Source: Sphingomonas baiyangensis
GTDB taxonomy: Bacteria > Pseudomonadota > Alphaproteobacteria > Sphingomonadales > Sphingomonadaceae
Assembly (NCBI RefSeq): GCF_005144715.1
Contig: NZ_SWKR01000002.1
Coordinates: forward strand, 1,726,227-1,790,226
DNA: 64,000 nucleotides
Direction: 5' to 3'
Positions 5,459 to 52,335 of this stretch are shown in pieces. Made by a program: the position numbers and the translations under genes. A model generated the notes under the pieces. That model was not told where the DNA came from and made no database searches. It saw only the letters and a list, made by a program, of their open reading frames with translations. The first letter of the stretch is position 1. Every line of letters begins with the position of its first letter.

Positions 5459-5483
5459 CGCGCGGTCGACTGAACCGATGCAA

Positions 5484-5514
5484 CGAAAAACGGCGGGCCT
5501 TTCGACCCGCCGTT
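5484..5514 (-). terminator. Intrinsic terminator of the TonB receptor gene
   Basis: A 9-bp stem (aacggcggg / cccgccgtt, arms 5489-5497 and 5506-5514) with an 8-nt loop lies 25 bp beyond the stop of the minus-strand receptor gene. Read on the minus strand it runs into a stretch of T residues (complement of cgaaaaa), as expected for a rho-independent terminator. It also sits after the plus-strand oxygenase gene and may serve it weakly. Confidence 0.8.
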
Positions 5515-5538
5515 CCCCGTTCAGCGATGATCCGAGGA

Positions 5539-8500: not shown

Positions 8501-8550
8501 CCGACAAGAACCGCCGTCGTGAGCAGATGTTGGCGAAAATTGGATCGCAT
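5539..8550 (-). CDS. TonB-dependent outer membrane receptor
   Basis: Ligand-gated outer-membrane transporter energised by TonB-ExbBD. The chosen ATG at 8550 gives 1003 residues starting with a signal peptide (MRSNFRQHLL...APAFAQ). The longer open frame upstream adds 49 residues that would bury this signal. After the signal come a plug domain (TGSRIQRPD, then LVLVNGRR and VYGSDAIAGVVNFRL) and a large barrel ending in FFVGARLQF with a terminal aromatic residue. It belongs to the big oligopeptide/carbohydrate-type receptor group expanded in sphingomonads; no siderophore-specific feature is visible. It converges with the oxygenase pair. Substrate cannot be told from the sequence. Confidence 0.93.
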   Translation of the reverse strand: MRSNFRQHLLTTAVLVGATVAAPAFAQEAVPSIQGAGVSAEVDPRGADQDTGTIVVTGSRIQRPDLTSTSPLTVVSSEEFQLSGATNVEQVLNTLPQVLPGVTGFSNNPGNGAVTLNLRNLGATRTLVLVNGRRWMFYDTNQIVDLNTIPQFMVEGVDVVTGGASAVYGSDAIAGVVNFRLRQDLNGIIMGGQYNITERGDGARYNIDFAMGSDFADGRGNVALFANYTQRKPIFQNQRDFSRFAAGDGCIRPGTTNPDTGIGQNLGGALGTCVSRGGELGLIPQGSASTPIASLPSVTSPSGLGYIFNPTGGGVTPFLDPDNLYNFAPDNYLQLPQERYLIGAYGNYEVTEGVELFTELSFVNNSVPQELAPTPIGQSVNLQLASPFFNDQTRALLAPLDTNNDGYVTTNVGFRFNQSGPRNVDANRTAFRILGGVRGDIAPKLQYEAYYSYARTRNSQFQQGNIARSRFGFALNTSFDAAGNLQCADAGARAAGCVPLNIFGLGLADQDAIDYVTINSNNTEISELQNAVAVVSGSLFNLGLGAGDVGFALGGEYRRMSSQYIPDTFLASGDVAGFNAGQPTSGSYDVKEIFGELRVPIIEDGFIDLLELNGAARYSDYSLGNVGGVWTYAGGVNIAPVPDILFRGNYQRSVRAPNVQDLFGGNSTGFPAAQDPCSDRGPANTRTDAVRALCIASGVPAANVFTRAVQPNAQIQANFGGNPNLSEETSDTYTVGAVIRPSFIPRLNITVDYFNIKVEDVISTFAGGLNSALSLCYTVAQDLSNPICQAFTGLRNPATGALGETSGGGNPNILSANIADLETSGIDVQVDYNMPLGFSLFGNGESRVNFFYLGTYLDRYRSTAVASIPERVTIAEGSFSGNPLPQYRHTTRLTYSDGPASLSLRWRYFGKVQDFRIENTFSGLDRVGTDPALLVNPFVSEVNYFDLTANVDVSDNFTLTMGVNNLFDEKPEVLGSLQEQANTYPGSYDVLGRDFFVGARLQF

Positions 8551-8804
8551 GTTGATGTGTCCCCTTTTTCCGAATGCGGATTTCGCTTCGGTTGTTAGGC
8601 GGCGACCCTTTTCGGGCCACTCTGCGGCGGTGATAGGCAGCAATGTTTGCGCTCCGCAATCCAAAGGAGTGCACTGAAAGCATTTTGACAGCGGCATTGT
8701 AGCAAAATTGCCACAACGCTGACGCAGACGCGTGACATCCCGCTACGCCGCTTGGCAGCCGGCACGATCGGCCATAGGCCGGACGCAGCATCCTGGAGAT
8801 CGAT

Positions 8805-9335
8805 ATGTCTGCCATGCTCGCAATCGCCTTTGCAGTCACCGTCGCCCCCCAAGCGCAAACGGTTACGCCGCAGTCCGATGCACAGGGATTGCGTGCGCTT
8901 GCTGCCTGCCGTGCGATTGCCGCTCCCGATGAGCGGCTTGCATGCTACGACAAAGAAGCCATCGCTCTCGAACAGGCCGTCGCATCGGGCGACCTGGTCG
9001 CACTCGATCGCGAGGAAGTCCGCAAGACGCGTCGGTCGTTGTTCGGATTCAATCTTCCCGCGATCCGGTTGTTCTCACGCCGCGACGATCGCCCCGCCGG
9101 CGAGCAGGAGGCGGTCGATCAACTCGCCGGCGTTATAAAGTCGGCGCGGCAGCTGCCGCGCGGCAAATGGCAGATCGAACTCGAGGATGGCGCGGTGTGG
9201 ACGCAGGTCGACACGAAGAAACTGACCATTGATCCCCGTTCCGGCCACAAGATCGAGATCCGGCGCGCCGCGCTCGGCTCCTATCTCGCCAACGTGAACG
9301 GCCAGACGGCGATCCGCGTCCAGCGCACGCAGTAA
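8805..9335 (+). CDS. Small exported protein of unknown function
   Basis: The 176-residue product starts with a short hydrophobic signal-like segment (MSAMLAIAFAVTVAPQAQ), so it is probably periplasmic. Residues about 30-50 contain ALAACRAIAAPDERLACYDK, a two-Cys motif that recalls the C-x(n)-RLxCYD pattern of VasI-like and other small periplasmic proteins. The C-terminal part is beta-rich (WQIELEDGAVWTQVD). A ribosome site (tggag) lies 6 bp before the ATG. It is divergent from the TonB receptor and convergent with the M23 lipoprotein. No function assigned. Confidence 0.75.
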   Translation: MSAMLAIAFAVTVAPQAQTVTPQSDAQGLRALAACRAIAAPDERLACYDKEAIALEQAVASGDLVALDREEVRKTRRSLFGFNLPAIRLFSRRDDRPAGEQEAVDQLAGVIKSARQLPRGKWQIELEDGAVWTQVDTKKLTIDPRSGHKIEIRRAALGSYLANVNGQTAIRVQRTQ

Positions 9336-9339
9336 GCCC

Positions 9340-10281
9340 CTACTCCGCCGCCGGCATCGGCCCCGCAAGCAGCAGCGGGTCGATGCGGGCGTTGTGCCAC
9401 TTCATGCTCCAGTGGAGATGCGGGCCGGTGGCGCGGCCGCTCGATCCCACCGCGCCGATCGGCTGGCCGCGCCGCACGCGGTCGCCCTCGGCCACATCGA
9501 TGCGCGACAGGTGCAGGAACGCGCTGTTGAGCCCCATGCCGTGGTCAAGCATCAGCAGATTGCCCTCGAGCGTGAAGGGCGATGCCGTGGCGAGCGTCAC
9601 CACGCCATCGGCGGGCGCGACGATCGGCGTACCCGGCGGACGCGCGACGTCAACGCCCGAATGATAGGCGCCGGGCTCGCCGCGATAGACGCGCTGCGCG
9701 CCGAAGAGGCCCGAGATGCGCCCCGTCACCGGCCACAGGAAAGGCTGGCGCCACCCCTCGACGGCATGATCCTGCGCCCGCGCCGCGGCGATGCGCGCAA
9801 GCTCGGGCGCGCGGCGGCGCGTGAACTCGGCCGACGGCACCGAGCGTCGCGGCAGGCTGTCGAGCCGCTCGATCCGCCATGCGCGCGGCGCGATGCGCAG
9901 CACCTCGCGATGCTCGGGAGCGCCAGCCCGCGTTGCGACGAGCGTCTGCGTCGCGGCTGCGTCGCGATCGAACGCAATGACGAAACGCCCGTCGCGCGCT
10001 ACCGCAACGGGCTGGCCGCCGAGCGTGAGCGCAGTGGTTCCGGGGGGTGCGGTGCCACGCACCACGCCGCCCTGCGTCAGGCTGCCGTCGAACATGAAGC
10101 GTGCGGGCGCTGGCGCGGGTGGGCGCGATTGCGGGCGGGGCGCCGCATCGGCGCGTGCCTCGGGCAAGGGCGCGATGGGTGCTGGCGCAAAGCCGCCGGC
10201 GGAGGCGCGCTCGGCAGCGGGCGGCACGACGGCGCAGCCCGCGAGCAGCGCCAGCGAACATGCCGCCGCGCGAGCGGTCAC
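9340..10281 (-). CDS. M23 family metallopeptidase lipoprotein
   Basis: Peptidoglycan endopeptidase or LytM-like activator. The GTG at 10281 gives 313 residues and starts a lipoprotein signal (VTARAAACSLALLAGC), so the mature protein is probably lipid-anchored at Cys16. The last 130 residues are the LytM domain: HSGVDVARPPGTPIVAPADG holds the first His/Asp, and GPHLHWSM gives the HxH zinc motif. Both are intact, so it should be catalytically active. The frame is open further upstream, but that part overlaps xseA and lacks gene character. The start overlaps the stop of the upstream DUF2093 gene (GTGA), implying translational coupling. Confidence 0.9.
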   Translation of the reverse strand: MTARAAACSLALLAGCAVVPPAAERASAGGFAPAPIAPLPEARADAAPRPQSRPPAPAPARFMFDGSLTQGGVVRGTAPPGTTALTLGGQPVAVARDGRFVIAFDRDAAATQTLVATRAGAPEHREVLRIAPRAWRIERLDSLPRRSVPSAEFTRRRAPELARIAAARAQDHAVEGWRQPFLWPVTGRISGLFGAQRVYRGEPGAYHSGVDVARPPGTPIVAPADGVVTLATASPFTLEGNLLMLDHGMGLNSAFLHLSRIDVAEGDRVRRGQPIGAVGSSGRATGPHLHWSMKWHNARIDPLLLAGPMPAAE

Positions 10282-10478
10282 GCAGGCGCCAGCGTGCGCG
10301 TCGCCGCCTCGGCGGTGGCATAGGCTTCCTGCCGCGCCACGCTCCAGTAGCGCAGCGCATCGAGCGCAATCCGCTCGCCCGTCACGGCGCAAAGCACATG
10401 ATCGCCGGGCGACAGCACGCGAAAGCCGTTCGCCATATAGTGCAGCTTGGCCGGGCGGGAGGCGTTGGACATGAGCAT
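10278..10478 (-). CDS. DUF2093 domain protein
   Basis: A 66-residue protein with the DUF2093 pattern NGFRVLSPGDHVLCAVTG followed by RIALDALRYWSVARQEAYA. The family is small, alphaproteobacterial and of unknown function; the CAVTG and RYWSVxxQE stretches are its hallmark. The start could be ATG 10478 or 10472. Its stop overlaps the start of the M23 lipoprotein gene by four bases (GTGA), and it lies just downstream of xseA, so the three may form one transcript. Confidence 0.85.
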   Translation of the reverse strand: MLMSNASRPAKLHYMANGFRVLSPGDHVLCAVTGERIALDALRYWSVARQEAYATAEAATRTLAPA

Positions 10479-10528
10479 GGGCGTTCGAACGATCCTCGGG
10501 TCGAATAGTGCGCCGCGTCTGGCGCGCG

Positions 10529-11911
10529 TCAGAACAGGCTCGGCTGCTCGGGTGCCTTGCGAGCATAGGGCTTGCCGCCCGCGCGCTCAACCCGCGCATC
10601 GACGGTGCCGTCGGCAAAGTGCAGCGTGAGCGTGCCCGCCGTGCGCGCGGCGGCGGCATCGGCCACCACGCGCCCCCCGCTCTCGACACGGACATAGCCG
10701 CGCGCAAGCGGCGCATTGGGATCGAGCGAGCGGCGCACGCGATCGAGCGCGTCGAGCGCGGCACGCCCCTGCGCCAGCCGCTGGTCGAGCATCGCCGGGC
10801 GCAGGACCGCGCCGGCGCGGTCGAGCTTGCCGCGCGCCGCCACCAGCCGCCGCTCGAGCCCGATCGCCAGGCGTTGCGCGGCATCGTCGACACGCTGGCG
10901 CTGCGGCCCCAGCAAGGTATCGCGCCGCGGCATCACCCGCGCCAGCGCCGCCAGTCGCTCGGCTGCGCGTTCATGGTGACGGCGCACGCAGCGGTCGGTG
11001 CGCAGCCCCAGCATCGCTACCTGCTCGGCAAGTTCGGCACGCACGGGCACCGCGATCTCGGCGGCGGCGGTGGGCGTCGGCGCGCGCAGATCGGCGGCGA
11101 AGTCGCACAGGCTGGTATCGGTTTCGTGCCCCACGGCCGAGATGATCGGGATCGAACAGCCCGCAACGGCACGCACCACGACTTCCTCGTTGAACGCCCA
11201 CAAATCCTCGATCGAGCCGCCGCCGCGCGCGACGATCACCAGGTCGGGGCGCGGCACCGGGCCGCCCGGGGCGATGGCATCGAAGCCGCGCACCGCGGCG
11301 GCCACTTCCTCGGCCGCGCCCTGCCCCTGCACCTTCACCGGCCAGACGATCACATGCGTGGGGCAGCGATCCTCGAGCCGGTGAAGGATGTCGCGGATCA
11401 CCGCGCCGGTTGGCGAAGTGACGACGCCGATGACGCGCGGCAGGAACGGCAGGTTGCGCTTGGCGGCGCGATCGAACAGCCCTTCGGCGGCGAGCGCGGC
11501 GCGGCGCTTTTCGAGCAGCGCCATCAGCGCGCCCTCGCCCGCCAGTTCCATGCGATCGATGACGATCTGGTATTTCGAACGGCCCGGATAGGTGGTCAGC
11601 CGGCCGCTCGCGACCACCTCGATGCCGTCGGCGGGAGCGAAGGGCAGTTGCGCGGCCTGACCACGCCAGATCACCGCATCGATCACCGCGCCCTCGTCCT
11701 TGAGGCACAGATAGGCATGGCCCGATGCCGCGCGCTTCCAGCCCGATATCTCGCCCTTCAGCCTGACATGGCCGAACTCGCCCTCGACCACGCGCTTCAG
11801 CCGCGCCGAAAGCTCGCTCACGCTCACCGCCGCGGCGTTGTCGCCCGGCCGCTCCTCGGCTAACAGGCGCGCGTCTGTATCGGTTGCGCGCGTCGAAAGG
11901 GGATCGGCCAT
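10529..11911 (-). CDS. xseA: Exodeoxyribonuclease VII large subunit
   Basis: Large, catalytic subunit of exonuclease VII, which degrades single-stranded DNA in both directions together with XseB. The product is 460 residues from the ATG at 11911. An OB-fold domain occupies about residues 30-130 ([14 protein letters not shown], then [13 protein letters not shown]). The catalytic domain follows with [30 protein letters not shown] and the [14 protein letters not shown] motif. A coiled-coil region and the conserved end ([10 protein letters not shown]) complete it. An upstream ATG at 12010 would run far into purD and is unlikely. The chosen start codon overlaps that of divergent purD. No xseB is visible nearby. 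Confidence 0.95.
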
Positions 11912-13175
11912 GAACGTCCTGCTGCTGGGATCGGGAGGCCGCGAACATGCGCTCGCATGGCGGCTTTCGCAATCGCCGGGCCTCACAAAGCTCTGGGCGG
12001 CACCGGGCAATCCGGGGATCGCCGCCCATGCCGAATGCGTCGCGATCGACCCGATGGATCAGCGCGCGGTGATCGATTTCTGCCTGCGCAATTCGGTGGG
12101 CTTCGTCGTCGTCGGGCCCGAATCGCCGCTGGTGGCGGGGCTGGCCGACAATCTGCGCACCATGGGCATCGCCACCTTCGGCCCCGGCCGCGCGGCGGCG
12201 CGGCTCGAGGGGTCGAAGGGCTTCACCAAGGATCTCTGCCGGCGCGAGAACATCCCGACCGCCGGCTATGCCCGCGTGTCGAGCCGCGACGGCGCCGAGG
12301 CGGCGTTGCCCGACTTCGGCCTGCCCGTCGTCATCAAGGCCGATGGGCTGGCGGCGGGCAAGGGCGTGGTCATCGCCTATACGCATGAGGAAGCCCGCGC
12401 CGCCTGTGCCGCATTGTTCGAGCGCCCCGGCGGCGAAGCGGTAATCGAGGAGTTCCTGACCGGTGAGGAAGCCAGCCTGTTCGTGCTGACTGACGGCGAG
12501 GCGATCGTGCCCTTCGGCTCGGCGCAGGACCACAAGCGCGTCGGCGAAGGCGATACCGGCCCCAATACCGGCGGCATGGGCGCCTATTCGCCGGCCTTCG
12601 TGCTTACCGAAACGCTCGAAAAGCGCGCGATCGACGAGATCGTGCGGCCGACGGTGGAAGCGCTGGCGCGCGCGGGCACCCCCTATTCGGGCGTGCTTTA
12701 TGCCGGCCTGATCCTCACCAATACCGGCCCCAAGCTCATCGAATATAACTGCCGCTTCGGCGATCCCGAATGCCAGGTGCTGATGGCGCGCTTCGAGGGC
12801 GATCTGCTCGACTGGCTGCTCGCGACCGCCGAGGGGCGGCTGGGTGCGATGGGCACGCCCGCCTTTGCCGACGATCCCGCGCTCACCGTCGTGATGGCAG
12901 CGAAGGGCTATCCGGGCACGCCCGTCGCCGGCGGCGCGATACGTGGGCTCGAGGCGGCCGAAGCGGCGGGCACGCGCGTGTTCCAGGCGGGCACGCGCCG
13001 CGAGGGCGATGCGCTCGTCGCCGCCGGAGGGCGCGTGCTTGCAGTCACCGCCAGCGGCAGCGACCTCGCCGCCGCGCAGGCAAATGCCTATCGCGGCGTC
13101 GACGCGATCGACTTCGCCGACGGCTTCTGCCGCCGCGACATCGGCGCGCGCGCGACCGAGGCGATGCCCGCCTGA
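11910..13175 (+). CDS. purD: Phosphoribosylamine-glycine ligase (GARS)
   Basis: Catalyses ATP-dependent joining of glycine to 5-phosphoribosylamine, the second step of purine synthesis. The 421-residue product starts [17 protein letters not shown], the family's N-terminal signature. It has the ATP-grasp motifs [13 protein letters not shown] (about 145-157) and [19 protein letters not shown] (about 210-228), and the metal-binding ending [14 protein letters not shown]. An in-frame ATG 24 codons upstream gives a tail that family members lack. Its ATG shares two bases with the divergent xseA start. Confidence 0.97.
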
Positions 13176-42014: not shown

Positions 42015-43130
42015 TTGAATCCCTTCACCGCCGCCGCCTGCCCGCGCCTGATCGTCAAGGTCGGCTCGTCGCTGCTCGTCGATCCCACAGGCGCGGTGCG
42101 GCGCGACTGGCTGGCGAGCCTCGTCGCCGATATTGCTGCGCGTGTGCGCGATGGCCAGCAGGTCGCGGTCGTCTCGTCGGGCGCGATCGCGCTCGGTGCG
42201 CGGCGGCTGGGACTGGCGAAGGGCGGGCGCGCGAGTCTCGAGGATGCGCAGGCCGCCGCCGCCACGGGGCAGATCGCGCTCGCCGGCATCTGGGCCGAAC
42301 TGCTGCACGGCGAAGGCCTCACCGCCGCGCAGATGCTGCTCACGCTCGACGATCTCGAGGATCGCCGCCGCTACCTCAATGCCGCCGCCACGCTCGATCG
42401 GCTGCTGCGGCTGGGCGTGGTGCCGGTCATCAACGAGAATGATTCGGTCGCGACCGAGGAAATCCGCTTCGGCGACAATGATCGCCTCGCCGCGCGCGTG
42501 GCGGGCGCGGCCGCCGCGCAGGGCGTAATCCTGCTGTCCGACGTCGACGGGCTCTACACCGCCAATCCCGGCAGCGACCCCTCGGCGCAGCACATCCCCC
42601 GCGTCGACGACATTGCCGCCGTCGCGCACATGGCCGATCGCGGTTCGGCATCGGGCATGGGATCGGGCGGCATGGTCGCCAAGGTCGAGGCGGCGCGCAT
42701 CGCCGTCGCTGCCGGCGCGACGCTGGCGATCGTGTCGGGCCGGCCGCCGCATCCGCTCGTCACCTATGCCGAAAGCGGCCACGGCACGGTCTTTCCCGCG
42801 GGCGACGCGGCGCCCGCGCGCAAGGCGTGGCTGCGCGGCGGGCTTACGGCGCGCGGCGCGATCCATCTCGATGCCGGCGCGGTTGCGGCGCTGCGCGAGG
42901 GACGCAGCCTGCTCGCCGCAGGCGCCACGCGCGTGGAAGGCCGCTTCGCGCGCGGCGATCTGGTTGTGCTGGTCGCGCCCGACGGCAGCCAGGTCGCTCG
43001 CGGACTCGCCGAATATGGCCATATGGACGCCGCGCTCGTGGTCGGTCGCCGCAGCGACGAACAGGCCGCACTGCTCGGCTACGCGCCGCGTTCGGCGCTG
43101 GTCCATCGCAACCACATGGCCTTGCTGTGA
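42015..43130 (+). CDS. proB: Glutamate 5-kinase
   Basis: First enzyme of proline synthesis, phosphorylating glutamate. The 371-residue product has the amino acid kinase domain (LIVKVGSSLLVD, VSSGAIALGARRLG, VVPVINENDSVATEEIRFGD, LLSDVDGLYT). A C-terminal PUA domain begins around 280 (RGAIHLDAGAVAALREG). ATG or nearby starts are possible; the frame opens at 42015 with TTG (ttgaatcccttc) behind a purine-rich acggagggg site. That suggests a TTG start. The stop overlaps the next gene's start (GTGA). Confidence 0.95.
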   Translation: MNPFTAAACPRLIVKVGSSLLVDPTGAVRRDWLASLVADIAARVRDGQQVAVVSSGAIALGARRLGLAKGGRASLEDAQAAAATGQIALAGIWAELLHGEGLTAAQMLLTLDDLEDRRRYLNAAATLDRLLRLGVVPVINENDSVATEEIRFGDNDRLAARVAGAAAAQGVILLSDVDGLYTANPGSDPSAQHIPRVDDIAAVAHMADRGSASGMGSGGMVAKVEAARIAVAAGATLAIVSGRPPHPLVTYAESGHGTVFPAGDAAPARKAWLRGGLTARGAIHLDAGAVAALREGRSLLAAGATRVEGRFARGDLVVLVAPDGSQVARGLAEYGHMDAALVVGRRSDEQAALLGYAPRSALVHRNHMALL

Positions 43131-44035
43131 GCGTGCTGGCCGTCACCGGCGGCACCGGCTTCGTTGGCACGCGGCTGATCGACGCAGCGCTGGCGGCGGG
43201 TCACACGGTGCGCGCGCTCGCGCGGCGCGAACAGCCGCCGCGTGCGGGCGTGACGTGGATTGCCGGCGCGCTCGACGATACGGACGCGCTGGAACGGCTC
43301 TGCGCCGGCGCCGATGCGGTGATCCACGTTGCCGGCGTAGTCAACGCGCCCGATCGCGCGGGCTTCGTAGCGGGCAATGTCGCGGGCACGCGGGCGATGC
43401 TCGCTGCCGCGTCAGCCACGGGCGTCGATCGCTTCGTCCATGTCTCGTCGCTGGCGGCGCGTGAGCCGCAGCTCTCGGTCTATGGCTGGTCGAAGGCCGA
43501 GGCCGAGCGGCTGGTGGCAGCAAGCGACCGCGCCTTCACGATCATGCGCCCGCCGGCGATCTACGGTCCGGGCGACCGCGAGATGCTCGAGATGTTCCGG
43601 CTTGCCAGGCGGGGCGTGGTGCCGCTGCCGCCCGAGGGCCGCTTCTCGACGCTGCACGTCGACGATCTCGCACGGTTGCTGCTCGCGCTTGCCGCAACGC
43701 CGGGCGATCGCGCGATCCTCGAGGCCGATGACGAGACGCCGCGCGGCTGGCGCCATGTCGACTTCGCGCGCGCGCTGGGCGAAGCCGTCGGCCGCCGCCG
43801 CGTACTGCCGCTTCCCCTGCCCCGCGCAGTGATGGCGGCAGGCGCGCGCATCGCCCGCGCGACGCAAGGGAATGCGGCCAAGCTCACGCCCGATCGCGTC
43901 GCCTATTTCTGCCATCCCGACTGGACGGTGGCCGACGATCGCCGCCCGGCGCCCGCCTTGTGGCGCCCCGCCATCGAGACGCGCGCGGGGCTTGCCGCTA
44001 CCGCCGAGTGGTATCGCGTGCACGGCCTGCTATAG
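43127..44035 (+). CDS. NAD(P)-dependent epimerase/reductase, candidate ceramide reductase
   Basis: The 302-residue product is an extended-type SDR: the Rossmann motif is VTGGTGFVGTRL at the N-terminus, and the catalytic Ser and YxxxK are in HVSSLAAREP and VYGWSKAEA. The GTG at 43127 overlaps the proB stop. Acp and spt follow 62 bp on. In Caulobacter an SDR beside spt and acp (CerR) reduces the keto group of ceramide, so this gene is a good candidate for that role. The assignment rests on family and neighbourhood, not on a specific signature. Confidence 0.8.
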   Translation: MSVLAVTGGTGFVGTRLIDAALAAGHTVRALARREQPPRAGVTWIAGALDDTDALERLCAGADAVIHVAGVVNAPDRAGFVAGNVAGTRAMLAAASATGVDRFVHVSSLAAREPQLSVYGWSKAEAERLVAASDRAFTIMRPPAIYGPGDREMLEMFRLARRGVVPLPPEGRFSTLHVDDLARLLLALAATPGDRAILEADDETPRGWRHVDFARALGEAVGRRRVLPLPLPRAVMAAGARIARATQGNAAKLTPDRVAYFCHPDWTVADDRRPAPALWRPAIETRAGLAATAEWYRVHGLL

Positions 44036-44097: not shown

Positions 44098-44343
44098 ATG
44101 TCCGATCGTCAGGCCATTTTCGATACCGTCGCGCAGCAGATCGAGCCGTTCAACAAGAAGGGCGTCGCGCTCACCGAAAGCACCACCTTCGCCGGCGATC
44201 TCGAATGGGACAGCCTGACCGTGATGGATTTCGTCGCCGCGATCGAGGACGAGTTCGACATCCTCATCACCATGAACATGCAGGCCGAGATCGAGAATGT
44301 CGGCCAGCTCGTCGACGCCGTGCAGAAGCTCAAGACCGCCTGA
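44098..44343 (+). CDS. Acyl carrier protein, sphingolipid-associated
   Basis: An 81-residue ACP with the phosphopantetheine site in WDSLTVMDF (Ser39) and the helical pattern of the family. It differs from the FabD/F-type AcpP in the DSL context (WDSL) and lies 7 bp upstream of spt. It is therefore probably a specialised carrier that delivers the acyl chain to serine palmitoyltransferase. The ATG at 44098 has tggaag upstream. The long frame that opens earlier is an overlap with the SDR gene. Confidence 0.92.
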   Translation: MSDRQAIFDTVAQQIEPFNKKGVALTESTTFAGDLEWDSLTVMDFVAAIEDEFDILITMNMQAEIENVGQLVDAVQKLKTA

Positions 44344-44350
44344 GGAACGC

Positions 44351-45619
44351 ATGACCGAAGCCGCCGCAACCGCGCACGCCCTGCCCGCCGAGGCGAACGC
44401 CGCGCCGCCCGCGCGCGACCTGTTCTCGAAGTTCGATCCGCTGATCGCCGAGCGCGAGGCGCTGCTCGCCACCGGCGTGCGCGATCCCTTCGCGATCGTG
44501 ATGGACGAGGTGAAATCGCCGACCGAAGCGGTGATCCGGGGCAAGGACACGATCCTGCTCGGCACGTACAACTACATGGGCATGACCTTCGATGCCGACG
44601 TGATCGAAGCCGGCAAGGCCGCGCTCGATGCGTTCGGATCGGGCACCAACGGCAGCCGGATGCTCAACGGCACTTTCCGCGACCATGTCGATGCCGAGAA
44701 CGCCCTGCGCGAATTCTACGGCGCCGATCATGCGATGGTGTTCTCGACGGGCTATCAGGCCAATCTGGGCATCATCTCGACCATCGCGGCCAAGGGCGAC
44801 TACATCATCCTCGATGCCGACAGCCATGCATCGATCTACGATGGCTGCGCGCTCGGCAATGCCGAGGTCGTTCGCTTCCGCCACAATTCGGTCGAGGATC
44901 TCGACAAAAGGCTGGGCCGCCTGCCCGCCGATGCCGGCAAGCTGGTGGTACTCGAAGGCGTCTATTCGATGCTCGGTGACATCGCCCCGCTCGATCAGAT
45001 GGTGGCGGTGGCGCGCAAGCACGGCGCGATGACGCTCAGCGACGAAGCGCATTCGATGGGCTTCTTCGGCGAGCATGGCCGCGGCGTGTACGAGGCACAG
45101 GGCCTGGAGCTTGGCCGCGACATCGATTTCGTCATCGGCACCTTCTCCAAGTCGGTGGGCACCGTCGGCGGCTTCTGCGTCTCGAACCATCCCAAGTTCG
45201 AGGTGATGCGCCTGGCCTGCCGACCCTATATCTTCACCGCCAGCCTGCCGCCGAGCGTTGTCGCCACCGCCGCCACCTCGATCCGCAAGCTGATGACCGC
45301 AACCGAGAAGCGCGAGCGGCTGTGGTGGAATGCGCGCACGCTGCACGCCAATCTGAAGGCGCTGGGCTTCCGCCTCGGCACCGAGGCGCCCGACAGTGCG
45401 ATCCTCGCCGTCATCCTTACCGATCAGCAGCAGGCGGTGATGATGTGGCAAGCGCTGCTCGAAGCCGGCCTCTACGTCAACATGGCACGCCCCCCTGCCA
45501 CGCCGGCGGGCACCTTCCTGCTGCGCTGCTCGCTGTGCGCCGAGCACCGCCCCGACCAGATCGAGGCCATCACCCGCATGTTCGAACAGGCCGGCCGCGC
45601 GACCGGCGCGATCGACTGA
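44351..45619 (+). CDS. spt: Serine palmitoyltransferase
   Basis: PLP enzyme condensing L-serine with an acyl thioester to 3-ketosphinganine, the first committed step of sphingolipid synthesis. The 422-residue soluble homodimer type has all key residues I know from the Sphingomonas enzyme. His159 in DADSHASIYDG stacks on PLP, Asp231 and His234 lie in LSDEAHSMGFFG, and the Schiff-base Lys267 is in GTFSKSVGTVGG. The start MTEAAATAHALPAE and the motifs SPTEAVIRGKDTILLGTYNY and RPPATPAGTFLLRC also match. It lies just after the ACP gene in an apparent operon. Confidence 0.97.
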   Translation: MTEAAATAHALPAEANAAPPARDLFSKFDPLIAEREALLATGVRDPFAIVMDEVKSPTEAVIRGKDTILLGTYNYMGMTFDADVIEAGKAALDAFGSGTNGSRMLNGTFRDHVDAENALREFYGADHAMVFSTGYQANLGIISTIAAKGDYIILDADSHASIYDGCALGNAEVVRFRHNSVEDLDKRLGRLPADAGKLVVLEGVYSMLGDIAPLDQMVAVARKHGAMTLSDEAHSMGFFGEHGRGVYEAQGLELGRDIDFVIGTFSKSVGTVGGFCVSNHPKFEVMRLACRPYIFTASLPPSVVATAATSIRKLMTATEKRERLWWNARTLHANLKALGFRLGTEAPDSAILAVILTDQQQAVMMWQALLEAGLYVNMARPPATPAGTFLLRCSLCAEHRPDQIEAITRMFEQAGRATGAID

Positions 45620-45632
45620 GCGCCCCTTCCGC

Positions 45633-47603
45633 GTGGAGGGGGTGACGCTGGAATCGGGCCGGCTGCGCAGCGCCATCGCGGCGCGGTGGCGCATGTTGCT
45701 GCTCGGCGCGGTGGGGATCGCCGGCGCGCTCGTGGCCGTGGCGCTGGTGCTGACGCTTGGCGCCGCCAACCGCGCGCGCGACGCCGCGCTCGATCGGCAA
45801 TCGCGCAGCTACGAGGTGATGATCCTCACGCGCTCGCTCGGCGGCAACCTCGCCGCGGCCGAAGCGGCGCTGGGCCGCTTCGTCATCAGCGGCGACAAGG
45901 CGCTCGGCCGGCGCTTCCAGGCCGAATGGCGCCGCGCACAGGGCGAGATCGATCGCCTGCGTCGCGCGGTGCGCAACAGTCCGGCGCAGGTGACGCGCAT
46001 CGCTGCGCTCGAACGCGCCTATGCCGCGCGCGGCGCCGAGCTCGGCCGGATCGCGCTGCACAGCAATTACGAACAGAACAATCAGGCGCTCTCGGCCTAT
46101 TACGATGCGCGCGAGAGCGCGGCGCTTGCCCGCATCGCGCGCATCCTCGCACGTATCGACGCGGCCGAGCGCGGCGAACTCGCGCGCCGGTCAGGTGAGG
46201 CCGCCGCGACGATCGATGCGTCCAATCGCGCCGCTGCGCTGCTCGGTGGCTTCGGGCTGCTGCTCGTCGCCGCCGCGCTGGCGCTGGGCTGGGCGATGGT
46301 CGGCGCGCTGACCGCGCGACGTCTGGCCGACGATGCCGCCGCGCACGAGCGCGAGCGCGCCGCGGCGCTCGAGGCCGCCGTCGTCGCCGCGACGGAGCGG
46401 CTCGAGGCCGAAGCCGCCGAGCGTGCCGCCGCCGAGGCGACGCTGCGGCAGGTACAGAAAATGGAGGCGGTCGGCCAGCTTACCGGTGGCATCGCGCACG
46501 ATTTCAACAATATGCTCGCGGTCGTGCTCGGCGGGCTCGATCTTGCGCGGCGCCAGCTTGCGCAGGGCGGCGATCCGCTGCGGCATATCGAGATGGCGAG
46601 CGAAGGCGCCGAACGCGCCGCCGCGCTCACGCGCCAGCTGCTCGCCTTCGCGCGTGCCGAGCCGCTGCTGCCCGAGGCGATCGATCCGGCCGTGCTCATC
46701 GCCGGCATGTCGGACCTTATCGATCGCACGCTGGGCGACAGCATCGTGGTAGTGGTCGAAAGCGACAGCGCAGGCTGCTGCATCTGGGGCGATCGCCACC
46801 AGCTCGAGAACGCGATCCTCAACCTCGCGGTTAACGCGCGTGACGCGATGGAGGGGCGTGGCACGATCACCCTCGCCACCGGCATCGCGACGCTCGCCGA
46901 AGGCGAGCTGGGGACGGCCGCCGCGGGCGACTATGCCACGATCGCGGTGCGCGACACCGGCTGCGGCATGACGCCCGAGGTGATCGAGCGCGCATTCGAG
47001 CCGTTCTTCACCACCAAGCCCGTGGGCAAGGGCACGGGGCTTGGACTCAGCCAGATCTTCGGGCTCGTACGGCAACTTTCGGGCGAGATCGCGATCCGTT
47101 CGACACCGGGTGAGGGAACGACGGTGACGCTCTACCTGCCGCGTCATGCGGGGCAGGCGGTCGATGCCGCCGCGCCGGTGCCATGTCCCGCCCCGGCGGC
47201 GGTCGCCGAGGCCGGCTACGACGTGCTGCTCGTCGAAGACGATCCGCGCGTGCTCGCCGCCACGATGGCGGCGCTGCGCGAGCTCGGCCATCGACCCGTC
47301 GCCTGCGGCGATCCGCTCGAGGCCGAGCGGCTGCTACGCGAAATGACGGCGACACCCGATATTGTCGTGACCGACGTGCTGATGCCCGGCCGCACCGGCC
47401 CCGAGCTGATCGAGGCGCTCGCTCCGATGCTCCCCGATGCCGCCGTGCTCTACATCACGGGATATGCCGGCGACGTCGGCGATCGCGCGCTGGCGGGCGC
47501 GCACGTCCTGCGCAAGCCTTTCACGCTCGTGGCGCTTGCCGAAGCGGTCGAGGCCGCGGTCGAGCAGACACGCGCGCCGCTGCCCGCCAGGCGGCGTGCC
47601 TGA
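45633..47603 (+). CDS. Hybrid sensor histidine kinase/response regulator
   Basis: The 656-residue product has transmembrane segments at about 20-44 and 201-224 enclosing a helical periplasmic sensor of about 155 residues (CHASE3-like). A coiled coil leads to the phosphoacceptor domain (GGIAHDFNNMLAVV, His289). The ATPase domain has the N-box (ILNLAVNARDAME) and G-boxes (VRDTGCGMTPEV, GKGTGLGLSQIFG), and a C-terminal receiver has Asp581 in VVTDVLMPG and the KPF Lys. All catalytic residues look intact. The start is uncertain: GTG 45633, with GTG 45642 or ATG 45693 as alternatives. It sits between spt and lptF, so an envelope or lipid signal is plausible. Confidence 0.88.
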   Translation: MEGVTLESGRLRSAIAARWRMLLLGAVGIAGALVAVALVLTLGAANRARDAALDRQSRSYEVMILTRSLGGNLAAAEAALGRFVISGDKALGRRFQAEWRRAQGEIDRLRRAVRNSPAQVTRIAALERAYAARGAELGRIALHSNYEQNNQALSAYYDARESAALARIARILARIDAAERGELARRSGEAAATIDASNRAAALLGGFGLLLVAAALALGWAMVGALTARRLADDAAAHERERAAALEAAVVAATERLEAEAAERAAAEATLRQVQKMEAVGQLTGGIAHDFNNMLAVVLGGLDLARRQLAQGGDPLRHIEMASEGAERAAALTRQLLAFARAEPLLPEAIDPAVLIAGMSDLIDRTLGDSIVVVVESDSAGCCIWGDRHQLENAILNLAVNARDAMEGRGTITLATGIATLAEGELGTAAAGDYATIAVRDTGCGMTPEVIERAFEPFFTTKPVGKGTGLGLSQIFGLVRQLSGEIAIRSTPGEGTTVTLYLPRHAGQAVDAAAPVPCPAPAAVAEAGYDVLLVEDDPRVLAATMAALRELGHRPVACGDPLEAERLLREMTATPDIVVTDVLMPGRTGPELIEALAPMLPDAAVLYITGYAGDVGDRALAGAHVLRKPFTLVALAEAVEAAVEQTRAPLPARRRA

Positions 47604-47700: not shown

Positions 47701-48891
47701 ATGCCCGCAATCGATCGCTACATGGCGCGGCTCATCGCGGTGCCGCTGTTCTCCACGCTGGTGATCGCGGCGATGCTGCTCGTGCTCGACCGGATGCTGC
47801 GGCTGTTCGATTTCGTCGCGACCGAGGGCGGGCCGGTGAGCGTGGTGTGGCAGATGCTCGCCAATCTGCTGCCCGAATATCTGGGGCTCGGCATCCCCAT
47901 CGGGCTGCTGCTCGGCATCCTGCTCGCTTTCCGCAAAATCGCCTCGTCGAGCGAGCTCGACGTGCTGCGCGGCGTGGGCATGAGCTATGGCCGGCTGCTG
48001 CGCGTGCCTTACTACTACACCATCGCGCTCGCCGCGCTCAATCTGGCGATCGTCGGCTATGTCCAGCCCAAGGCGCGCTACGCCTATGAAGAGCTGCGCT
48101 TCGAGCTGCGATCGGGCGCGCTCGGCGCGTCGATCAAGGTCGGCGAGTTCACCCAGTTCGGCGACAATATGGCGCTGCGCATCGAGGAAAGCCGCGAAAG
48201 CGGGCGCGATCTGTCGGGCATCTTCGTCAATTTCCGCGATGCCGAAGGCGGCTGGTACGCCGCCTCGGCCGAAAAGGGTCAGTTCCTCGCGACCGACGAT
48301 CCTAACACGATCATCTTCCGCCTGACGCGCGGCACGCTGGTGCACAACTCGCCGGGCTTCGTGACGCCGCGCGTGCTGACCTTCACCAGCCACGACCTGC
48401 CGATCCCGCTGCCCGAGTTCGGCCAGTTCCGCGCGCGTGGCGACCGAAATCTCGAACGTACGCTGCCCGAGCTCGTCGTCCTCGGACGCGACCCCGCGCA
48501 AAGCGAGCAGGTGCGCGACACCAGTCGCGCGGCTTTCCATTTCCGCGTGGTGGAGATTGCGACGATGTTCCTGCTGCCGCTGCTGGCGGTGGCGCTCGGC
48601 GTGCCGCCCAAGCGATCGACCTCGGCGCTCGGCGTGTTCCTCGCGATCGTGATGATCGTGACCTATCACAAGATCAACGAATATGGCGAAGCCGTGGGCG
48701 GGCTCGGCCGGATCGATCCGCTTATCGCCCTGTGGGTGCCGTTCGTGATCTTCGCCGCACTGATCCTGTGGATGTACCATCAGATCGCACATGTCCCCGG
48801 CGGCCAGCCGATCGGCGCGCTCGAGCGCTGGGCAGGCAAGGCTGCGGCAGCGGTGGCGCGGCGGATGCCCGGACGGAGACGCATGGCATGA
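47701..48891 (+). CDS. lptF: LptF/LptG family permease (LptF-like)
   Basis: YjgP/YjgQ family inner-membrane subunit. The 396-residue product begins MPAIDRYMARLIAVPLFSTL and has three N-terminal helices. A periplasmic beta-jellyroll-like domain spans about 130-270, then three C-terminal helices end the protein. In LPS bacteria LptF and LptG form the LptB2FG ABC complex that extracts lipid to the periplasmic bridge. Sphingomonads lack LPS and use glycosphingolipid, so the cargo here may be that lipid. The stop overlaps the next start (ATGA). Confidence 0.92.
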   Translation: MPAIDRYMARLIAVPLFSTLVIAAMLLVLDRMLRLFDFVATEGGPVSVVWQMLANLLPEYLGLGIPIGLLLGILLAFRKIASSSELDVLRGVGMSYGRLLRVPYYYTIALAALNLAIVGYVQPKARYAYEELRFELRSGALGASIKVGEFTQFGDNMALRIEESRESGRDLSGIFVNFRDAEGGWYAASAEKGQFLATDDPNTIIFRLTRGTLVHNSPGFVTPRVLTFTSHDLPIPLPEFGQFRARGDRNLERTLPELVVLGRDPAQSEQVRDTSRAAFHFRVVEIATMFLLPLLAVALGVPPKRSTSALGVFLAIVMIVTYHKINEYGEAVGGLGRIDPLIALWVPFVIFAALILWMYHQIAHVPGGQPIGALERWAGKAAAAVARRMPGRRRMA

Positions 48892-49988
48892 GCGGCGCAC
48901 TATCCTTTTTCCCTTCGCGCACCGTCTCGCTCTACATGGGCAAGATGTTCCTCATCCGCAGCTTCGCGATCCTCGCGGCGCTGGTGCTGGTGCTGCAGGC
49001 GCTCGACCTTTTGTCCGAAAGCGGGCGCATCCTTGCCTATGAAGGCAATGGCCAGGGGCAGGTGCTGCGCTATGTCAGCCTGCGCACGCCTGAGATTATC
49101 GCCCGCTTCCTGCCCTTCTCGGTGCTGCTGGGCACCATCATCACGCTATCGACGCTCAACCAGAACAGCGAGGTCATCGCGCTCAAGGCCTCGGGCCTCT
49201 CGGCACATCAGGTACTGGCGCCGCTGATCCTCGCGGCGCTGGGCGTTGCCGTCCTGTCGTTCGCGTTCAACGAGCGGATCGTGGCGCGCGCCACCGCCAC
49301 GCTCGATGCATGGCGCGCGGTCGATTACGGCCCGGTGCCCGTCGATCGCGGCGACCGCGCCAATGTTTGGGTGCGATCGGGCGACAATCTCATCCAGGCC
49401 CGCCAGGTCGCAGGCCGGGGCGACGCCGCGCGGCTGGCCGGTGTGACGGTGTTCGAACGCGAGGGCGGCTCGATCGTTTCGGTGCTGACCGCCGCGCGCG
49501 CAACGCGTGCGGGCGAGGGCTGGCGCGCCGAGCAGGTCGAGCGCTTTGATGTCGCGCGTGGGCAGATCACGCGCGCGCCCGCGGCGATCATCGGCGAGGG
49601 CGTGCGCTCCGACCAGTTCACGCTGGCAAGTGTCAATGCCGATGGCCTCTCGTTCGTCGAGCTGCGCGCGGCGATCGACGAGCTCGAAGTCGCTGGCCGG
49701 CCGACCAAGGCGCTCGAAGGCACGCTCTGGCACAAATTGTCGGGGCCGCTGTCGTCGGTGCTGATGCCGCTCCTCGGCGCGGTCGCGGCATTCGGCGTCG
49801 CGCGCTCGGGCAAATTGTTCATCCGTGCGGTGCTGGGGATGATGCTGGGCTTCGCCTATTTCGTCGCCGACAATTTCGCGCTCGCAATGGGCAATCTCGG
49901 CGCCTACCCGCCCTTCCTCGCGGCATGGGCGCCGTTCCTGCTGTTCTTCCTGATCGGCGAGGCAGTGCTGGTGCGTACCGAGGAATAG
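48888..49988 (+). CDS. lptG: LptF/LptG family permease (LptG-like)
   Basis: Partner subunit of the same family, 366 residues. It starts MSGALSFFPSRTVSLYMGKM and has the helical segment IRSFAILAALVLVLQALDLL, then the family motif RFLPFSVLLGTIITLSTLNQ before a periplasmic domain (about 100-270). C-terminal helices follow (FFLIGEAVLVRTEE at the end). The ATG overlaps the lptF stop, a strong sign of coupled translation and stoichiometric complex formation. No lptB ATPase gene is in the window. Confidence 0.92.
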   Translation: MSGALSFFPSRTVSLYMGKMFLIRSFAILAALVLVLQALDLLSESGRILAYEGNGQGQVLRYVSLRTPEIIARFLPFSVLLGTIITLSTLNQNSEVIALKASGLSAHQVLAPLILAALGVAVLSFAFNERIVARATATLDAWRAVDYGPVPVDRGDRANVWVRSGDNLIQARQVAGRGDAARLAGVTVFEREGGSIVSVLTAARATRAGEGWRAEQVERFDVARGQITRAPAAIIGEGVRSDQFTLASVNADGLSFVELRAAIDELEVAGRPTKALEGTLWHKLSGPLSSVLMPLLGAVAAFGVARSGKLFIRAVLGMMLGFAYFVADNFALAMGNLGAYPPFLAAWAPFLLFFLIGEAVLVRTEE

Positions 49989-49998
49989 CGCGGGCGGC

Positions 49999-51096
49999 TC
50001 AGCGCGCCGTCATCGTTCCGCGCGCCAGCCGCGCCACTAGCCCCGGCAGCCCCTTGTAGCTCGCCTTGTGATAGACCGAATGCGGCTCGATCGCTGCCGA
50101 GATCCGGCGGTGCGCTTCACCGAGCGCGTGGTAGGGCAGCCCCGGCAACAGGTGATGCAGCGCGTGATAGCGCAGGCCGACCGGCGCCCACAGGAAAGGC
50201 AGCAGCGCCGGCGGCGGCACGTTGACCGAATCGAGATACTGCGCGGTGAGCGACATTTCCTCGCCCTCATTCTCCCACAGATGCGCGACCAGCGTGCGCA
50301 CCTGGTTGACGATCATGATCGCCGAGATCGTCGCGAGATACACGCCGAACGCCCACAAAGGCACCACGCCCGTCGCGACCGCGCCAAGCAGCGCGATCGA
50401 CCAGATGCTCGTCGCGATCTCGAGCTGCCACCACAGCCGGCGGGCCGCACCCTCGGCAGGGCGGCGGCGGAAATCGGGATTGATGCACAAGGCCGAATAG
50501 CGTGCCTCGACCACCGGACGCAGCGAAGGCACGATGAGCGACAGCGGCGTCAGCACGGCATAGCGCACGAGAAAGCCGATCGGCGCCAGCGCCGCGACCG
50601 CGAGGAACAGCGGCAGGCTCCACGGCTTCATGTTGGCGAGCGGCAGATATTCGGGATCGTCGATCGTGCCGTAGCGCGTCTTGGCGTGGTGCAGGTTGTG
50701 CACGCCCTCATAGGTGAAGGACGGCGCAAGCAGCGGGATGCCAATCAGCACGTTCCACCCCAGCCGGAAGCCGGGCAATGCCGCGTGCTTGATATGGCTC
50801 ACCTCGTGGATGAAGCTCGCGGCGCGATACAGCGCGAGCACCGACACCACCCAGGCAGCGATGCCCCATCCCGACGCACCGAGCGTGACGGCGGCCGCGA
50901 ACGCGGCATAGCCGATGACCGACGACGCGATCAGGTCGCTCCAGTAGATCGCGGGGCGCGGTGCCGTCAGGTCGCGCGTCAGCTCGGACGCCGCGCGCAG
51001 CATCGCCCGGTCGTCGGCGACGGGAGCGCGGCGCGAAACCGTGCGCGGCGTCGGTACACCGGCGGCATCGCGCCGATCGAGGGAAAACGAGTTCAT
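49999..51096 (-). CDS. Membrane fatty acid desaturase family protein
   Basis: A 365-residue integral membrane di-iron enzyme. The three His boxes are visible: HEVSHIKH (about 122), GVHNLHHAK (about 155) and YHALHHLLPG (about 310), together eight or more histidines. Hydrophobic segments flank the first and second boxes. The ATG at 51096 is preferred; the upstream 21 codons are not typical. It is convergent with lptG and divergent from the GNAT-like gene. Acting on a fatty acyl or sphingoid chain is plausible from the context but not shown; some family members are hydroxylases. Confidence 0.85.
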   Translation of the reverse strand: MNSFSLDRRDAAGVPTPRTVSRRAPVADDRAMLRAASELTRDLTAPRPAIYWSDLIASSVIGYAAFAAAVTLGASGWGIAAWVVSVLALYRAASFIHEVSHIKHAALPGFRLGWNVLIGIPLLAPSFTYEGVHNLHHAKTRYGTIDDPEYLPLANMKPWSLPLFLAVAALAPIGFLVRYAVLTPLSLIVPSLRPVVEARYSALCINPDFRRRPAEGAARRLWWQLEIATSIWSIALLGAVATGVVPLWAFGVYLATISAIMIVNQVRTLVAHLWENEGEEMSLTAQYLDSVNVPPPALLPFLWAPVGLRYHALHHLLPGLPYHALGEAHRRISAAIEPHSVYHKASYKGLPGLVARLARGTMTAR

Positions 51097-51183
51097 GGCT
51101 ACCAGCAATATCGTCAGATAATGGCGGGATATGGGCGTCGCGGCCGCTTGACACAACACCGGCGAGACCGGACGGAACGGTGC

Positions 51184-52335
51184 ATGACCACGACCCGCCC
51201 CGTCGCCACCAAGGCCGATCTCGAAGCCTTTATCGATCTGGCCTATCGCCTCAATGCCGACGACCCCAACTGGGTGCCGCCGCTGCGCGCCGAAGTGCGC
51301 GACACGCTATCGCCCAAGACCAATGGCTGGTTCAGCCATGCCGAGGCACAGTTGTTTCTTGCCGAGCGCGATGGACGTGTGGTGGGCCGCATCTCGGCGC
51401 ATGTCGACACGCTGGCGCTGACGATGCCGCCCGAACAGGGCTTCGGCCCCGGTTGCGGCCAATGGGGCATGTTCGAGGCCGAGGACGCCGAGGCCGCGGC
51501 CGTGCTGATCGACACCGCCGAGACATGGCTCAAGGGCCGCGGGCTCGATCGCGCGCTCGGTCCGATCAGCCTGTCGATCTGGGAGCAGCCGGGACTGTTG
51601 ACGCAGGGCTTCGATCACAAGCCGACGGTGATGATGGGGCACAATCCGCCGCACTATCGTGCTTGGATCGAGGCGGCGGGCTATGCGCCGGCCAAGGAAC
51701 TCGTCACCTACGAACTCGGAATCACGCAGGACTTTCCGCCGCTGGTGCAGCGCATCGTCGCGGCGGGTGATCGCAACCCGCGCATCCGCATCCGCCGCGT
51801 CGACAAAGCGCGCTTCGCCGAGGAGGCGGCGATCATTCTCGGCATCCTCAACGATGCCTGGTCGGACAATTGGGGCTTCGTGCCGCTTACCCCGCCCGAA
51901 ATCGAGGATGTCGGCAAGAAGCTCAAGCCGATCGTGTTCGAGGATCTTATCCGCATCGCCGAACTCGACGGCGAGCCCGTGGCATTCATGATTACACTGC
52001 CCGATCTCAACGAAGTGATCGCGCCGCTCAAGGGCTCGCTGCTGCCGTTCGGCTGGGCGAAGCTGCTGCTATGGATCCGGCGCCCGCGGGCGCGCACGAT
52101 GCGCGTGCCGCTGATGGGCGTGGTCAAGCGGTTGCAGGCGTCGCGCATCGCGAGCCAGCTGGCTTTCATGATGATCGAATATATCCGCCGTGACGCAGTG
52201 GCGAAATACGGCGCCGAACGCGGCGAGATCGGCTGGATTCTCGACGACAATCAGGGGATGATCGCCATCGCCGACACGATCGAGAGCAAGATCAACCGGC
52301 GCTACACGATCTTCGAGCGATCGCTCGACGCCTGA
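51184..52335 (+). CDS. GNAT-fold acyltransferase-like protein, candidate bacterial ceramide synthase
   Basis: The 383-residue product is of a family often annotated as N-acetyltransferase or, oddly, dATP pyrophosphohydrolase. Typical stretches are LNADDPNWVPPLRAEVRDTL, RDGRVVGRISAHVDTLAL, GQWGMFEAED, ALGPISLSIWEQPGLLTQGF and ILNDAWSDNWGFVPLT. The last 120 residues look like a second GNAT half. From memory the Caulobacter ceramide synthase (bCerS) belongs to this family, and its presence near spt, acp and an SDR supports the same role: N-acylating a sphingoid base. It is divergent from the desaturase. Confidence 0.78.
   Translation: MTTTRPVATKADLEAFIDLAYRLNADDPNWVPPLRAEVRDTLSPKTNGWFSHAEAQLFLAERDGRVVGRISAHVDTLALTMPPEQGFGPGCGQWGMFEAEDAEAAAVLIDTAETWLKGRGLDRALGPISLSIWEQPGLLTQGFDHKPTVMMGHNPPHYRAWIEAAGYAPAKELVTYELGITQDFPPLVQRIVAAGDRNPRIRIRRVDKARFAEEAAIILGILNDAWSDNWGFVPLTPPEIEDVGKKLKPIVFEDLIRIAELDGEPVAFMITLPDLNEVIAPLKGSLLPFGWAKLLLWIRRPRARTMRVPLMGVVKRLQASRIASQLAFMMIEYIRRDAVAKYGAERGEIGWILDDNQGMIAIADTIESKINRRYTIFERSLDA

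Follow-up and report, generated by a model that had tools for sequence, protein, structure and literature searches.

The question raised by this locus is which lipid is carried by LptF and LptG, the permease subunits annotated for the export of lipopolysaccharide (LPS), when their genes lie in a sphingolipid synthesis cluster of Sphingomonas baiyangensis. Sphingomonads lack LPS, and glucuronic-acid glycosphingolipids serve as its replacement. The lack of LPS in sphingomonads was also cited by Olea-Ozuna et al. in 2024, in a study which stated that the route of bacterial sphingolipids to the outer membrane was unknown (PMC11324152). The window, i.e., the whole stretch of 64,000 nucleotides analysed here, is best read as encoding the permease of an LptB2FG complex which, together with the Lpt bridge, would carry a ceramide-anchored lipid to the outer membrane; a probability of roughly three in four is assigned to this reading, in which transport is deduced from sequence comparison. 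In sphingomonads this lipid is probably a glycosphingolipid, since glycosphingolipid is known to stand in for LPS in these bacteria, which makes it the likeliest cargo.

Genes of the sphingolipid cluster in the window, in the order in which they lie
Feature	Position	Strand	Evidence and remarks
NAD-dependent epimerase/reductase, cerR-type 3-oxosphinganine reductase candidate	43124..44035 (start codon approximate)	+	PF01370 8e-27
Acyl carrier protein (acpR-type), adjoins spt	44098..44343	+	PF00550 3.3e-08
spt, serine palmitoyltransferase (SPT)	44351..45619	+	NF047603 801.5 bits, cut-off 670
CHASE3 hybrid histidine kinase, between spt and lptF	45633..47603	+	domain match
lptF	47701..48891	+	396 aa; PF03739 197.0 bits; type-2 (sphingolipid-associated) branch
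lptG	48888..49988	+	366 aa; PF03739 239.9 bits (extended frame); TIGR04408 300.9; type-2 branch
Fatty acid desaturase/hydroxylase, between lptG and cerS	49999..51159	-	PF00487 2.2e-23
cerS, bacterial ceramide synthase candidate (GNAT-like)	51184..52335	+	weak PF00583 match

That lptF and lptG overlap and lie between spt and a ceramide synthase candidate, as the original prediction had it, was borne out by the coordinates and by inspection of the sequence, in which lptG starts at the ATG within an ATGA overlap with lptF. The PF03739 matches of both proteins are nearly full length and far exceed the curated cut-off of 27.9 bits; LptG also scores above the TIGR04408 cut-off of 240, and LptF falls slightly below the TIGR04407 cut-off of 230 (225.3). 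An AlphaFold model of LptF, built with 13 aligned sequences, showed the LptF fold (pLDDT 81.6, pTM 0.67), with six TM helices and, in this LptF model, periplasmic beta-jellyroll strands between the helix groups. All PDB matches of the model with E < 0.001 were LptF or LptG chains of LptB2FG(C) complexes. In Caulobacter and other named bacteria, a homologue of the cerS candidate (36–46% identity) comes next after the spt-side lptFG pair. The interval also holds a histidine kinase gene and a minus-strand desaturase/hydroxylase gene, both absent from the original prediction. The kinase probably stands outside the transporter proper and is possibly an envelope sensor; a hybrid histidine kinase was observed at the spt-lptF interval in some sphingomonads (L073, L074, L079) and not in others, e.g., L072. 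The desaturase/hydroxylase, which is retained between lptG and cerS in L072, L074, L078 and L079, may possibly act as the acyl hydroxylase for the amide-linked acyl chain of sphingolipids.

The relationship of the pair to other permeases was resolved by bit scores and by phylogeny. The window LptF scored 134–343 bits against SPT-associated pairs of other families and mostly 40–70 bits against LPS-type pairs, including 51 and 45 bits against the other pair of G144 and G145, respectively, two genomes with both SPT and LpxC. In FastTree phylogenies, one clade, hereafter type 2, united the window and other sphingomonads with SPT-associated pairs from five further families, at a support of 0.97 for LptF and 1.0 for LptG. 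IQ-TREE analysis of reduced sets, with named loci added and the LptF and LptG trees rooted reciprocally, recovered the same type-2 clade of 21 members, including the window and Caulobacter, with UFBoot values of 99 (LptF) and 100 (LptG), in agreement with FastTree. Both window proteins fall outside the LPS-type clade in both trees.

Two further LptFG groups were observed beside lipid genes. In Acidocella, Nitrospirillum, Elstera and two metagenome bins (L154, L155, L170, L174, L148), a pair lies 1.6–8.7 kb upstream of spt; it is not of type 2 and clusters in the trees with the LPS-type sequence from enterobacteria (UFBoot 98 and 100). A divergent second LptF/LptG pair was found in an LpxC-positive alphaproteobacterium (L081, G140:C2:490000-506000, positions 4997-13112, plus strand), in a gene run with an alpha-oxoamine synthase, an inositol-3-phosphate synthase, an SDR, a phosphatidate cytidylyltransferase-like protein and a GT4 glycosyltransferase; here LptFG seems to have been recruited separately, to a cluster for an inositol lipid.

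The residues that contact LPS in characterised exporters were then compared with those of the window. Cryo-EM showed that LptG K34, K62, R133 and R136 together with LptF R33 touch one lipid A phosphate, and that LptG K40 and LptF K317 touch the other (PMC6744409); in Acinetobacter, LptF R30 and R55 are critical (PMC10794137). By HMMER alignment, on which this comparison with the E. coli sites is based (a multiple alignment shifted the reference LptG TM1 by three residues), the window LptG carries Q, E, D and R at K34, K62, R133 and R136, and S and E at K40 and K41, while the window LptF carries E at K317 and arginine at sites 30 and 33 (R31 and R34 in its own numbering). The E. coli LPS-contact residues alone were rejected as a test: several are also missing in alphaproteobacterial LPS-type LptG, so that they are not diagnostic and the comparison within the class is the informative one. 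In this comparison, TM1 of type-2 LptF carries D/E30 in 43/43 and R/K31 in 42/43 sequences, and the matching TM1 sites of LPS-type LptF are mostly T or S, then Q (Q in 31/36). At the end of TM1 of LptG, the first arginine of an Arg-Arg pair is basic in 88% of LPS-type proteins vs. 0–4% of type 2. These sequence differences show a predicted entry region that has been remodelled in type 2. The comparison of cavity residues that had been proposed as a check thus yielded clear clade-specific changes in both LptF and LptG, but the ligand is not named by them.

The competing reading that survives best is that the pair exports a phosphosphingolipid of the ceramide phosphoglycerate type, or any ceramide lipid, with the ceramide anchor and an acidic headgroup being recognised. 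This reading, which poses a narrower question within the favoured one and is partly compatible with it, is possible but somewhat doubtful, since the LPS substitutes for which sphingomonads are known are glycosphingolipids with glucuronic acid. The retained cationic residues R31 and R34 of LptF, at the LPS-phosphate contact positions of Acinetobacter and Shigella, speak for it, as does the Caulobacter locus, where the same clade lies beside spt in a cluster that produces ceramide phosphoglycerates (PMC11324152).

The favoured reading of a ceramide-anchored cargo was further examined by co-occurrence. Type-2 LptF (at least 330 bits, the next best match being 207) was found in 19 of 299 Pseudomonadota genomes. 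All 19 are SPT-positive (22 SPT-positive genomes in total), and none of the 277 SPT-negative genomes has a type-2 LptF, giving a Fisher p of ~3e-27, a value which ignores relatedness and was obtained with type-2 models seeded mostly from spt-linked loci. The positives span six families, with most coming from one. Within family f63, G428 has both SPT and type-2 LptF, and the SPT-negative members (e.g., G181, G295, G320, G425 and G461) gave only LPS-type scores. Three SPT-positive genomes lacked a type-2 LptF match (G184, G278 and G290), the latter two lying outside the class. In G184, a single contig of 5.4 Mb which carries spt, acp, cerR and cerS (L071, G184:C1:1500000-1519500), searches for LptF/LptG and LpxC found neither, so sphingolipid placement there must work in another way.

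Gene linkage was assessed in genomes of the same family, 120 of 120 of which gave an SPT match, 115 of them above the family cut-off. Among these 115, lptG lies at most 12.3 kb from spt in 43 (~37%), on the same strand in 41 of the 43, against a random expectation of ~1% for such proximity in a 3 Mb genome. Of 80 named spt loci, for which flanks of up to 10 kb were fetched, 59 have a type-2 LptF and 54 a type-2 LptG within the flank; this sample is rich in Acetobacteraceae, as the first query row belonged to that family, and at some of its loci the window LptG or acp query gave no match, while the profile search does detect LptG. Chance linkage of lptG to spt was ruled out by these two counts (43/115 and 59/80). 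Linkage to spt recurs in Caulobacter, Azospirillum and Stella, and the order (cerR)-(acp)-spt ... lptF-lptG-cerS is found in these, in Methylopila, in Niveispirillum and in others. A cerR-type reductase lies upstream of spt in the Caulobacter, Azospirillum and Stella loci; a cerS homolog follows lptF2-lptG2 in the same three and in Methylopila; and an acyl carrier protein adjoins spt in most related loci, except in part of the Acetobacteraceae. In the remaining 72 family genomes, lptG and spt are apart or on separate contigs, and separated spt and lpt genes also occur in S. wittichii and Z. mobilis (PMC11324152). Linkage in 43 and its absence in 72 suggest that the gene order is ancestral or was repeatedly kept, and that it is not essential. 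Conservation of this order across sphingomonads, which had been proposed as a check, therefore held in part, being far above chance but missing from the larger share of genomes. The association of this LptFG branch with sphingolipid synthesis is supported by phylogeny, co-occurrence and synteny alike.

The unlinked genomes could also be taken to mean that the proximity to spt is simply inherited gene order and that the pair moves another outer-membrane lipid, e.g., a phospholipid, a hopanoid or a lipoglycan, and cardiolipin is indeed bound by Pseudomonas LptB2FGC (PMC12738788). However, this is improbable, as type-2 LptF accompanies SPT in 19/19 genomes and occurs in 0/277 genomes without it, and as LpxC-positive, SPT-positive genomes have a second pair that lies by spt where the contigs permit a view. 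The latter pattern comes from a sample of 67 alphaproteobacterial genomes, one or two per family, of which eight gave strong SPT matches. Two SPT-positive, LpxC-positive genomes (G144 and G145, the second fragmented) form this dual-lipid comparison. Each has two LptFG pairs, one of type 2 and one of LPS type; one pair of G144 lies ~3 kb from spt, and the contigs of G145 are too short to judge. In the SPT-positive, LpxC-negative genomes with LptFG (the window's own genus, G155, G157 and G176), a single pair was seen, which shares a contig with spt and lies at most ~13 kb from it. Two other genomes, G177 and G180 (L100, L101), carry LPS-type LptFG, yet gave no LpxC match and no strong SPT match, which may reflect assembly gaps or another cargo.

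In the source genome itself (3.27 Mb, 99.99% complete), exactly one LptF and one LptG were detected, both in the window, and a search for a second pair found none. The exporter partners LptB, LptC, LptA and LptD are encoded: lptC, lptA, lptB and rpoN lie in a row in a fetched region far from the window, with LptC, the single one detected, found with PF06835 (TIGR04409 39.2, cut-off 38), LptA with PF03968 (1e-18) and LptB with TIGR04406 (357.6 bits, cut-off 240), and lptD (5e-61) adjoins surA elsewhere. LpxC, the single Lpx enzyme by which the LPS pathway was judged, was found neither in the source genome nor in the 120 family genomes searched, while four control genomes gave matches; thus, no sign was seen of a cell that makes lipid A for export. 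LptFG was nevertheless present in 119/120 family genomes, with exactly two matches in 108, and LptD in 58 of the 60 searched, so the Lpt machine has been kept without its textbook cargo. The absence of LpxC and the presence of only one LptFG pair make lipid A-based LPS a very unlikely substrate, and the two findings that the original prediction had named as counting against it, a full LPS pathway and a second lptFG pair, were not encountered. An ordinary LPS exporter with an overlooked LPS pathway, or a relic, is close to refuted, for although NCBIfam places LptG above its cut-off as an LPS exporter and LpxC was the sole Lpx enzyme probed, LpxC is missing throughout the family with positive controls, and the retained LptFG falls outside the LPS-type clade.

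The proposal that the permease delivers glycosphingolipid to the outer membrane thus stands as far as the exclusion of LPS and the tie to sphingolipid synthesis are concerned; the preference for glycosphingolipid over phosphosphingolipid does not follow from the data, as the same branch lies by spt in Caulobacter, a maker of ceramide phosphoglycerate. Under the favoured reading, LptF and LptG would be the membrane-spanning half of an ABC exporter, LptB2FG(C), whose cargo is no longer LPS. The lipid would be synthesised and then flipped at the inner membrane, from which LptB2FG would extract it and hand it to LptC, LptA and LptD. In bacteria making both lipids, the second LptFG pair, of type 2, would have become tied to sphingolipid synthesis, and sphingomonads, on losing LPS, would have retained only this pair together with the common bridge. 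In this scheme we infer that the pair forms a complex with the unlinked LptB, LptC, LptA and LptD, what it carries and in which direction, and in which order the evolutionary steps took place. A broader proposal can be put forward only tentatively: LptFG may have been recruited several times independently to (sphingo)lipid clusters (type 2, the Acidocella/Nitrospirillum/Elstera group and the divergent pair with the oxoamine and inositol-phosphate synthases), and the type-2 pair may have replaced the LPS permease in sphingomonads, which would make the whole Lpt bridge a general carrier, with the FG pair deciding what it transports.

If the favoured reading of sphingolipid export is true, the annotation "LPS export permease" in sphingomonads and other sphingolipid makers is wrong on the substrate. 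Sphingomonads would offer a clean test case, with no LpxC, one LptFG pair and a single LptD detected in almost every genome searched, and the genomes that hold both type-1 and type-2 LptFG a natural experiment on Lpt cargo specificity. The idea of sphingolipid transport is itself already known: Olea-Ozuna et al. named Caulobacter CC_1168, CC_1156 and CC_1155 as LptC2, LptF2 and LptG2 and proposed, but did not investigate, such transport (PMC11324152), and the window pair is a member of that group. The same study reported cofitness of lptF2 (CC_1156) and lptC2 (CC_1168) mutants with CC_1159, a phosphosphingolipid gene, and listed Sphingomonas wittichii and Zymomonas mobilis as having LptC2/F2/G2 orthologs (PMC11324152). 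A literature search for a direct test of transport by LptF2/G2 found none for any member. New here are the clade test, the co-occurrence test, the pattern of one pair without LpxC, the diagnostic residues and the further LptFG groups beside lipid clusters.

Among known systems, Borrelia burgdorferi resembles the window in having Lpt-like machinery in an LPS-less diderm; it is set beside the window by description rather than by sequence, and the portion of the report drawn on here mentions no linkage to a sphingolipid cluster (PMC10353723). The LptB2FG exporters of Escherichia, Klebsiella, Pseudomonas and Acinetobacter share with the window pair the PF03739 architecture, the predicted fold, the adjacent and overlapping lptF and lptG, and the encoding of LptB, LptC, LptA and LptD elsewhere. 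However, they have ~20% identity to it and form a separate branch; their LptG residues K34, K40, K41, K62 and R133 correspond to Q, S, E, E and D in the window, and their LptF K30 and R33 to R31 and R34. Unlike the hosts of these LPS exporters, the source genome has no LpxC, and thus no lipid A is expected. The closest system is LptF2/LptG2 of Caulobacter crescentus (CC_1156/CC_1155; loci L151 and L158), which belongs to the same monophyletic branch by both bit score and tree and has the same neighbours, with lptF-lptG-cerS downstream of spt. Caulobacter makes LPS too, and its cluster copies are second versions of LptC, LptF and LptG (PMC11324152), whereas in the window's genome, which lacks LpxC, the type-2 pair is the sole one and the single detected LptC is encoded in the ordinary, distant lptC-lptA-lptB cluster.
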